Shown in pieces: positions 20,319 to 22,672 of a DNA stretch of 23,899 nucleotides. This stretch comes from a virus, in IMG/VR virus record IMGVR_UViG_3300048115_000128, positions 1 through 23,899 of that record; one strand, 5' to 3'. The notes below the pieces were generated by a model. It was not told the origin of the DNA. It worked only from the letters and a program-made list of their open reading frames with translations, and made no database searches. Within the stretch, counting starts at the first letter, position 1; each line of letters starts with the position of its first letter. A program made the position numbers and the translations under genes.

Positions 20319-21739
20319 TGGCAATATATAGTAGAGATTTTTTAACATCAAGACACAAACACTACGAAGAAAAATTCAAGGATTGGCATTTTCATTTAAT
20401 GTCATATCTTGGCGGACAGGATTATCAAGATGGTTATCAGTTAAATAGATACATCCTAGAGACTGATGAGGAGTATTTAAAACGAGCAGAAAACACTCCT
20501 ATTGATAATCATTGTAAGAACGTAGTACAGATTTATTCCTCATTTTTATTTAGAGTTGCACCCACAAGAGATTACGGATCATTAGCAGGTGATCCTCAGC
20601 TAGAGAGTTTTATTAATGATGCAGATTTAGATGGTAGATCATTTGACAATGTAATTAGAGAGATGCAAGTAAACGCATCTATCTATGGTACTTGTTGGGG
20701 TATTATAGATAAACCTGCAATACAAACTCAAACTAGAGCAGAGGAGATCCAGTTAGACATCAGACCATACATGAGCATCTATACCCCTGAGAATGTCTTA
20801 AATTGGAATTATGAGCGTAGTATGAACGGAAGATATGTTCTTACAGAATTAACATTGTTAGAAGATTTATTTGATGATGTAGCCACCATTAGAGTTTGGA
20901 ATATGGAAGATATTTCTACTTACAAAGTAAAAGATTTTAATAAAGGTTATGCTACTGCTAAACCTATGCTTATAGATGAAATGCCTAATCAATTAGGTAA
21001 AGTTCCTGCCGTAGTTTTATATAACCAGAAATCTCAGCGTAGAGGTGTTGGTATATCTGATCTCAATGATGTGGCAGAATTGCAGAAAGCTATTTACAAT
21101 GACTATTCTGAAATAGAGCAGCTAATTAGATTGTCTAATCACCCTAGCCTAGTAAAGACACCTAATGTAGAAGCTAGTGCAGGTGCAGGATCTATTATTG
21201 AAATGCCTGAAGATTTAGATGCAAGTTTAAAACCCTATTTAATTCAACCAAGTTCCCAGTCATTAGATGGCATTATGAGCAATATCAATATGAAGGTAGA
21301 AGCTATTAATAGAATTACACATATGGGAGCAGTAAGAGCCACTCAGGATAGAGTACAATCTGGAATAGCACTACAAACAGAATTTCAATTATTAAACGCT
21401 AGATTATCGGAGAAAGCAGATTACTTACAGAACGCAGAAGAACAAATCTGGAAACTATTTGCTGAATGGCAAGATAAAGATTTTGATGGGGAAATAATTT
21501 ATCCTGATAGCTTTAATCTGAGAGATTACGCTAGTGATCTACAATTCCTACAGGCAGCTAAAGCTAGTGGCGTTCCTTCAGATAGCTTTGCTAAAGAAGT
21601 AGATAAACAAATAGCTAGAGCCGTAGTAGATGATGATGAAAAGATTAGCACTATTGATGATGAGATAGATGCGAAAGCTGCACCTATTGGTCAATTCTCT
21701 ACACCAACTATTGAGGGTGAAGAAATTGAAGAAGCGTAA
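20318..21739 (+). CDS. Portal protein
   Basis: This 473-residue protein has the form of a siphovirus portal subunit. The N-terminal region includes Leu-Gly-Gly-Gln-Asp-Tyr-Gln-Asp-Gly-Tyr and Thr-Pro-Ile-Asp-Asn-His-Cys-Lys-Asn-Val-Val-Gln-Ile-Tyr. The wing and stem include an Ile-Ser-Asp-Leu-Asn-Asp-Val-Ala motif, and a helical crown-like region ends in acidic residues. I choose the ATG at 20318 because it overlaps the TerL stop as TAATG and follows AGGTGGAG, rather than a GTG at 20309. It forms the dodecameric channel through which DNA enters the head. Assignment rests on length, motifs and position right after TerL. Confidence 0.82.
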   Translation: MAIYSRDFLTSRHKHYEEKFKDWHFHLMSYLGGQDYQDGYQLNRYILETDEEYLKRAENTPIDNHCKNVVQIYSSFLFRVAPTRDYGSLAGDPQLESFINDADLDGRSFDNVIREMQVNASIYGTCWGIIDKPAIQTQTRAEEIQLDIRPYMSIYTPENVLNWNYERSMNGRYVLTELTLLEDLFDDVATIRVWNMEDISTYKVKDFNKGYATAKPMLIDEMPNQLGKVPAVVLYNQKSQRRGVGISDLNDVAELQKAIYNDYSEIEQLIRLSNHPSLVKTPNVEASAGAGSIIEMPEDLDASLKPYLIQPSSQSLDGIMSNINMKVEAINRITHMGAVRATQDRVQSGIALQTEFQLLNARLSEKADYLQNAEEQIWKLFAEWQDKDFDGEIIYPDSFNLRDYASDLQFLQAAKASGVPSDSFAKEVDKQIARAVVDDDEKISTIDDEIDAKAAPIGQFSTPTIEGEEIEEA

Positions 21740-21902
21740 AGTTCCTAAAGATAAGAAATCTAAAGTACCTAAGAAGTACCTATCAGGTCTTAAAGGTGCT
21801 AAGAGATCAAGACGAGCATCATTAATTAAAAAAGTTGCAGCACTGTATAAAGCAGGTAAACGCATTCCCATGGGATTATTAAGATCAAGGACTAAAGCAT
21901 AA
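21726..21902 (+). CDS. Very basic small protein after portal
   Basis: This protein is rich in Lys and Arg (Lys-Lys-Arg-Lys-Val, Lys-Asp-Lys-Lys-Ser-Lys, Lys-Arg-Ser-Arg-Arg) with one helix near Leu-Ile-Lys-Lys-Val-Ala-Ala-Leu-Tyr. I propose TTG at 21726 as start (58 residues), after GAGGGTG. The ATG at 21669 would need a 71-base overlap with portal. It ends with TAATG overlap onto the next gene. I recall similar basic proteins near portal genes of marine phages. DNA or head binding is an inference. Confidence 0.55.
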   Translation: MKKRKVPKDKKSKVPKKYLSGLKGAKRSRRASLIKKVAALYKAGKRIPMGLLRSRTKA

Positions 21903-22141
21903 TGGCAGTAAGAAGAAAACCATTATCAGCTACAGTTAAAGCCACCTTACAAAGAAAAGCAAAGGCATCTAAAAGATATACTTATGGAACACTAGCTAAA
22001 GTGTACCGCAGAGGACAGGGTGCTTTTTTATCATCTGGTAGCCGTAGAGTACCTATGGCGGCATGGTCTATGGGTAGAGTAAACTCATTCCTTAGAGGTA
22101 GTCGGAAACACGACTTAGACTTACGCAAAAAGAAAAAGTAA
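21902..22141 (+). CDS. Basic protein, possible frameshift donor
   Basis: This 79-residue protein is highly basic. Its core reads Tyr-Gly-Thr-Leu-Ala-Lys-Val-Tyr-Arg-Arg-Gly-Gln-Gly-Ala-Phe, then Ala-Ala-Trp-Ser-Met-Gly-Arg-Val-Asn-Ser-Phe-Leu-Arg-Gly, a pattern I associate with small proteins of the head region in marine phages. It ends Arg-Lys-Lys-Lys-Lys at an A-rich run that could let ribosomes slip into the -1 frame (see 22138-22371). The function is unknown. Confidence 0.65.
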   Translation: MAVRRKPLSATVKATLQRKAKASKRYTYGTLAKVYRRGQGAFLSSGSRRVPMAAWSMGRVNSFLRGSRKHDLDLRKKKK

Positions 22142-22371
22142 AAGGTAGAACAGTATCTACTACTGATTTCTATAATTGGTCACATCAGCAACATGGTGAA
22201 AAGAAATGCTTTTGCGGTAAGTTCGCAAGTATCGGTTTTAATTACAGATATGGTATGTTAGAACTACTATGTTTTAAACATTACGAAGAAAGGATAAGCC
22301 AATGCCATACGGAAAAGGAACATACGGATCAAAAGTCGGTAGACCAAAAAAATCAACTAAGTCTAATATGA
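22138..22371 (+). CDS. Cys/His-rich -1 frame extension, possibly made by frameshifting
   Basis: This open frame codes for 77 residues from GTA at 22138 and has no ATG, GTG or TTG start before the late ATG at 22255. It includes Lys-Cys-Phe-Cys-Gly-Lys and, 18 residues on, Cys-Phe-Lys-His, a Cys-Cys-Cys-His set that could hold zinc. The upstream frame (21902) ends with two AAAAAG runs at 22127-22138. A -1 slip on AAG just before its TAA would join the two into a protein of about 156 residues. A hairpin GGTAGA/TCTACT (22144-22161) starts five bases after. It overlaps the next tiny gene by 70 bases. Confidence 0.4.
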   Translation, partial: VKGRTVSTTDFYNWSHQQHGEKKCFCGKFASIGFNYRYGMLELLCFKHYEERISQCHTEKEHTDQKSVDQKNQLSLI

Positions 22372-22394
22372 AGAAGAAAAAGAAAAAGAAATAA
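22302..22394 (+). CDS. Tiny Gly/Lys-rich peptide
   Basis: This 30-residue peptide begins MPYGKGTYGSKVGRPKK and ends in seven Lys. I recall similar MPYGKGTYG peptides in marine phage head regions. GAAAGGAT lies before the ATG and the stop overlaps the next ATG. It may bind DNA or be a virion component. Its small size keeps confidence moderate. Confidence 0.55.
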   Translation: MPYGKGTYGSKVGRPKKSTKSNMKKKKKKK

Positions 22395-22672
22395 TGGCTA
22401 AATATAGAGGTCGCCAAGTCAAGCTGAATAAACCTTTTAGAACACCCAGTAAAAGCAAGAAATTTGGTGTTTATGTGAAGGATAAATCCAGTGGAAATGT
22501 CAAAGTAGTGAGATTTGGCGATCCTAAAATGAAGATAAAAAAGAACATTCCTGCTAGACAAAGGTCATTTTTGGCTAGAATGGGGGGTGTTTTAAAGCAA
22601 GTACGAGGTCAAAAGACATTATCCCCTGCCTATTGGTCAATTAGGGCATGGAAAAAAAACTTTCCTTTATAG
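22394..22672 (+). CDS. Basic protein of DUF6321-like type
   Basis: This 92-residue protein has the order Val-Lys-Leu-Asn-Lys-Pro-Phe-Arg-Thr, Phe-Gly-Val-Tyr-Val-Lys, Val-Val-Arg-Phe-Gly-Asp-Pro-Lys-Met, and Ile-Pro-Ala-Arg-Gln-Arg-Ser-Phe-Leu-Ala-Arg, then Ala-Tyr-Trp-Ser-Ile-Arg-Ala-Trp. Relatives I recall in marine phages have Arg-His-Asn-Cys after the Phe-x-Ala-Arg and Trp-Ser-Cys near the end; both Cys are missing here. It may be virion-associated. It is the last gene before promoter P3. Confidence 0.6.
   Translation: MAKYRGRQVKLNKPFRTPSKSKKFGVYVKDKSSGNVKVVRFGDPKMKIKKNIPARQRSFLARMGGVLKQVRGQKTLSPAYWSIRAWKKNFPL

Follow-up and report, generated by a model that had tools for sequence, protein, structure and literature searches.

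The stretch of DNA analysed here (the window) is a 23,899-base IMG/VR virus record, the terminase of which is 54-55% identical to that of Pelagibacter phages such as HTVC202P, HTVC111P, and HTVC026P. In it the portal gene is followed by a short lysine-rich gene, then by a gene for a 79-aa basic protein and, behind this, by an open reading frame in the −1 frame. No tRNA gene was found in the window. The features of the locus, all on the + strand and in positions of the window, are:

21902..22141, + strand: zero-frame gene of the 79-aa basic protein, with the end ...DLRKKKK and a stop; phrog_28338, weak DUF5824 similarity, predicted to be all-helical.
22096..22122, + strand: upstream stem-loop (probable), with outer stem 22096-22099/22119-22122, inner stem 22100-22104/22111-22115 and loop 22105-22110.
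22127..22132, + strand: first slippery run, AAA_AAG (containing the A_AAG tetramer); every relative with this arrangement has C/A_AAA_AAG or A_AAA_AAA here.
22133..22138, + strand: second AAA_AAG run, directly 5′ of the stop; AAG_AAG in three haplotypes and missing in L233/L234.
22139..22141, + strand: zero-frame stop TAA, which is TAA in every relative of the same arrangement.
22138..22371, + strand: −1 frame extension of 77 aa with no start codon; predicted treble-clef-like Cys-x-Cys-Gly ... Cys-x2-His domain, conserved part 22138-22302.
22302..22394, + strand: 30-aa gene MPYGKGTYGSK..., starting within the 3′ part of the extension in a different frame.

The PHROG to which the basic protein was assigned is one of unknown function, and its resemblance to DUF5824 is under the curated cut-off. 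The predicted structure has four helices, and a fold search with it gave no match. The gene comes after terminase and portal; as a sequence-only reading of this DNA had already put forward, it lies in the portal-head region and differs from the tail-chaperone type. In agreement with this, none of the family searches grouped the protein with tail chaperones, and a tail-assembly-chaperone frameshift of the lambda G/GT kind was rejected given the gene order and the PHROG. The identity of a major capsid gene was unsupported by every test made. A 238-aa post-portal gene of L244 (PV211013.1, Roseobacter phage CRP-823), at 1168-1884, contains a relative of the basic protein and is annotated as major capsid protein; the next gene is also annotated in this way, and one of the two names is probably wrong. 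With respect to the lysine-rich gene between portal and basic gene (window 21714-21902), its most likely start is a TTG near 21725, overlapping the portal stop, while a longer listed ORF begins at ATG 21669 within the portal gene. TTG starts recur among the relatives in overlaps of this type.

No stop interrupts the −1 frame between 22102 and 22368, and TGA at 22369-22371 closes it. The sequence-only reading had described 77 residues open in this frame and a fused product of about 156; both figures hold, as there are 77 codons counted from V at 22138 and the fusion would comprise 79+77 = 156 aa. The missing start was also borne out, with no NTG or ATN codon ahead of the CxC...CxxH motif in the open frame of the window. 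Three scans of IMG/VR revealed more than 70 contigs that encode the extension. The arrangement of the window, named context A, in which the extension lies in the −1 frame behind a basic gene of 79-81 aa, was present in about 40 contigs plus the window, corresponding to 32 distinct haplotypes, and ATG, GTG, TTG, and CTG were absent from the −1 open frame in 32/32 of them. Given that about 40 independent contigs share the start-less arrangement, a sequence error is excluded.

Conservation at the protein level was clear in this group. In 23 distinct start-less relatives the extension had a pS of 0.42 and a pN of 0.057 (pN/pS 0.14), vs pN/pS values of 1.18 and 1.34, with 2-9 stops, in the other two frames across the same stretch. 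Judging from these substitution patterns, the extension is a real protein under purifying selection. The ratio was 0.16 before the first Cys and 0.12 from the first Cys on; since the portion ahead of this Cys is constrained as well, translation should begin upstream of it. The residues Cys24, Cys26, Cys45, and His48 were invariant over 24 aligned relatives with identity down to 60%.

The carriers of the start-less arrangement are a family of uncultured marine phages related to Pelagibacter phages. None of the cultured phages in the collection searched has the extension, and tblastn against 50,697 phage records, including an own-start relative as query and with E up to 10, gave no match. No convincing match was obtained against Pfam, PHROGs, or PDB sequence profiles, and fold searches with Foldseek gave none below E 0.5, the best VIA-align Z being 2.8. 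The predicted structure of the extension by itself (pLDDT 81) consists of a knuckle, a hairpin, and a helix, which is the element order of the treble clef, a fold with a zinc knuckle, a beta-hairpin, and a helix that bears two more ligands at its start. The extension is therefore predicted to be a zinc-finger-like, treble-clef-like domain that would bind zinc through its Cys and His residues.

Some traits of the surrounding sequence must also be mentioned. The 30-aa MPYGKGTYGSK... gene, which overlaps the 3′ part of the extension, comes after it in most contexts, and in the window (22302-22672) it is followed by the 92-aa MAKYRGRQVKLNKPF... gene. In L164, L171, L174, L188, and L193 differing extra genes are found between these two, which suggests that the region after the extension is a hot spot of small-gene turnover. 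The extension gene of L243 is joined, at the contig end, to a long poly-C stretch and to what resembles a sequencing adapter, which is probably an artefact of assembly in the public data.

The basic gene ends in AAA AAG AAA AAG TAA. The two AAAAAG runs before the stop that the sequence-only reading had pointed out are thus located at 22127-22132 and 22133-22138, with TAA at 22139, and its question whether the A-rich run is conserved can be answered positively. A slippery run was kept in 32/32 haplotypes as C_AAA_AAG, A_AAA_AAG, or, in L233/L234, A_AAA_AAA; in these last two AAAAAG is missing at this place and there are eight As in a row. The second AAA_AAG is missing in five haplotypes, so that the first run is the likelier slip site and the second is not essential. 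In addition, the frame relation between gene and extension was exactly −1 in 32/32 haplotypes and every indel was a multiple of three. Six tail sequences of three lengths were seen among the 32 haplotypes, these being, after codon 75, AAAAAGAAAAAGTAA, AAAAAGAAGAAGTAA, AAAAAGAAAAAGAAGTAA, AAAAAGAAAAAGAAATAA, AAAAAAAGACGCAAGAAATAA, and AAAAAAAGACGCAAGAAGTAA. It must be noted that members of this gene family lacking the extension also commonly end in lysine-rich tails encoded by A-rich codons. In E. coli, according to the data available from PMC4066793, A_AAG is the most shift-prone tetramer measured when a stimulator is given, and is barely shifty without one.

The upstream stem-loop sits inside the zero-frame gene, with its 3′ end 4 bases ahead of the first slippery run. 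The inner stem is AGTCG/CGACT and the outer stem AGGT/ACTT, and the loop has one variable base. The inner stem was complete in 32/32 distinct sequences with the extension vs 0/50 without it, in a split that places L080 among the carriers. Overall, 100% of the cells were paired, with no double-sided compensatory changes. A search for the hairpin block in 2.9 million contigs found 36, and wherever enough sequence follows the block, a slippery run and the extension come after it. The 5′ portion of the gene in L027 and L218 clusters with that of extension-less relatives, yet block, slip run, and extension are all present, indicating that the 3′ block and the extension stay together. Synonymous change in codons 66-75 of the basic gene was 0.44 of expectation in context A (p 0.012, at this pre-specified place) vs 1.38 in 51 relatives used for comparison, of which only L080 has the extension. 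In a scan over all intervals, the synonymous minimum lay at the junction, with a permutation result that was not significant (111 and 336 of 1000). Given that double-sided compensatory changes are lacking and that the related sequences are not independent, the stem-loop is probable rather than proven, and its strict conservation could partly reflect one common origin. A search of Rfam gave no match. No Shine-Dalgarno-like stimulator was found in the sequence 9-14 bases upstream of the slip site.

On the 3′ side, the 6-bp hairpin at 22144-22161 that the sequence-only reading had proposed does fold in the window, but it is not conserved in relatives. Among 22 distinct relatives, two of its six pairs fail, one in 7 and the other in 11, for which reason it was rejected as a stimulator, and L139-type sequences fold differently over this region. 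Folding of the alignment (RNAalifold) showed no conserved stem just 3′ of the slip site. A 3′ stimulatory structure is, as described in PMC4066793, common and not obligatory for bacterial −1 frameshifts. RNAalifold also paired CGCAAAA at the slip site (22124-22130) with the Cys-x-Cys codons ~85 bases downstream (about 22210-22216), a pairing kept in nearly all relatives that may reflect conserved codons only.

The extension was found in two further gene contexts. In context B it is in the +1 frame and overlaps a form of the basic gene that is more divergent, and has an in-frame TTG, ATG, or GTG, while in context C it overlaps the end of a 241-aa post-portal gene and has an ATG start, or TTG in L164 and L169. 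The comparison of fused and separate arrangements among homologues, which had been suggested from the sequence, thus gave a divided answer: the start-less arrangement recurs widely, and own-start genes exist in the other contexts. Separate homologues with a start, which that reading had named as evidence against itself, are therefore partly borne out, though in gene surroundings unlike those of the window. Given its own ATG, TTG, or GTG in those two contexts, the module can be regarded as mobile and as start-less in context A only. In the tree of the extension, members of context A were intermixed with those of context C, and one member of context C grouped with context B. According to this mixing, the module appears to recombine between contexts. 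In L164, L169, L174, L175, and L185 of context C the preceding gene ends in TCC TAA, with the extension in +1; this TCC-stop recalls the +1 site of antizyme, though ATG or TTG is also present.

Considering all these comparisons, we judge it quite probable that the −1 frameshift proposed by the sequence-only reading is a programmed one and yields a minor 156-aa fusion protein; the protein-level conservation of the extension and the A-rich run in every relative of the arrangement speak for it. This explanation is favoured because it jointly accounts for a conserved protein that lacks a start, the constant −1 relation, the slippery run, and the block of reduced synonymous change. Some ribosomes reaching the end of the 79-aa gene would slip back one base on its A-rich 3′ end, the likeliest place being the first AAA_AAG (22127-22132), where lysyl-tRNA would re-pair from AAG to AAA, while the second AAA_AAG, where present, would be an additional slip site. 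The slipped ribosomes would no longer meet TAA in frame and would continue in the −1 frame to 22368, adding the zinc-finger-like domain. The products would be a major 79-aa protein and, at a rate of slippage that we presume to be low, a minor 156-aa fusion, both with a common N-terminus. The upstream stem-loop is probably part of the frameshift signal. If slippage occurs at the first run, most of the stem would not yet have left the ribosome, and the stem-loop could be formed behind a ribosome waiting at TAA. Plausibly, the fusion would be a minor head-region protein with an extra metal-binding domain, in few copies per particle, this domain perhaps being nucleic-acid- or protein-binding.

Other explanations must be considered. 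The extension might be made as a separate protein from an unusual codon in the overlap (e.g., ACG 22123 or GTA/ATA 22138), perhaps by re-initiation after TAA, the frame being simply inherited. The starts that the module has in contexts B and C, the invariance of ACG 22123 in the group, and the fact that dual coding would likewise suppress upstream synonymous changes are in accordance with this possibility. Nevertheless, we consider it unlikely: there is no NTG in 32/32 haplotypes, no Shine-Dalgarno-like stretch lies 5-10 bases before ACG 22123, and GTA at 22138 is ATA in some relatives only. Moreover, the few substitutions seen within the overlapping stretch alter the −1 reading non-conservatively (L to S, R to G, Q to K, K to E), and the conserved slippery run would be left unexplained. 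That the extension is a dead gene, its start lost through recombination, would fit the movement of the module among gene contexts seen in the tree and the start missing here. It is very improbable, however, as purifying selection inside the start-less group, at a pS of 0.42, and the lack of any frame-breaking indel in 32 haplotypes exclude it in practice.

A ribosome hop, in which lysyl-tRNA would pass from AAG before TAA to AAA at 22141-22143 with the help of the 5′ stem-loop as in T4 gene 60, is equally hard to sustain. There is indeed a lysine codon before the stop and another five bases on, in the frame of the extension, and bypassing is known to involve 5′ stem-loops (as presented in PMC5009743). 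However, the landing codon is replaced by AGA in L158, which leaves no lysine codon to land on, and the conserved A-rich run farther upstream would lack an explanation. Slippage of the RNA polymerase on the A runs, giving a minority of transcripts in the −1 frame, is the least credible of these alternatives. The A-rich runs as such, and the eight consecutive As of L233/L234, could be cited for it, but the runs in the window have only five As each and are interrupted by G, most relatives keep five or six, and such slippage normally requires longer runs.

Programmed −1 frameshifting at this locus belongs to a known class of mechanism and can be compared with several systems. Like lambda gpG/gpGT and its relatives, it would be a low-level −1 shift near the end of a small phage gene with a minor product that gains an extra C-terminal domain, whereas here the gene lies just after the portal, in the head region, and the extension is Cys/His-rich. 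T7 gp10A/B is a frameshift-extended capsid protein. The major head protein of phage A2 is also frameshift-extended (cited in PMC10885494). With both it would share a −1 shift near the 3′ end of a head-region gene and a minor extended form, but none of the tests made identified the present gene as one for a major capsid protein, and its extension is zinc-finger-like. The slippery motif is the same as that of IS3-family elements and dnaX (A_AAG / A_AAA_AAG), with presumably the same tRNA re-pairing; in those systems a 3′ structure acts, often together with a Shine-Dalgarno-like stimulator on the 5′ side, whereas here neither was found conserved and a conserved 5′ stem-loop is present instead. 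Upstream stem-loops are described for the bypassing of T4 gene 60 and close to the frameshift site of a luteovirus (according to PMC5009743); in T4 gene 60 the stem-loop is likewise 5′ of the recoding site, but no conserved take-off/landing pair exists here. The literature search found no paper describing this extension or frameshift and nothing useful on the host tRNA-Lys set, and the passages it covered described no −1 frameshift in bacteria whose sole conserved structure is a 5′ stem-loop. The case is a variant of the known class in its gene, in its domain, and in having a 5′ stem-loop but no conserved 3′ stimulator. We would only tentatively propose that the slippery A run and the 5′ stem-loop, in the absence of a 3′ stimulator, form a signal that travels with the mobile zinc-finger module. 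With similar caution, the module might owe its expression to this signal, being translated as a prolongation of the gene before it rather than from a start codon of its own.

Documented phage frameshifting concerns mostly tail chaperones and a few capsid genes, and the present one is a comparative-genomics case in a different gene, in relatives of the phages of Pelagibacter, which is an abundant group in the sea. With no start codon, the extension would escape gene callers. That this small protein is encoded independently in some phages, while in others it is apparently a frameshift extension, provides a natural comparison. With it, one could examine how genes come to depend on recoding, and whether −1 slippage in bacteria can be stimulated by a stem-loop on the 5′ side.
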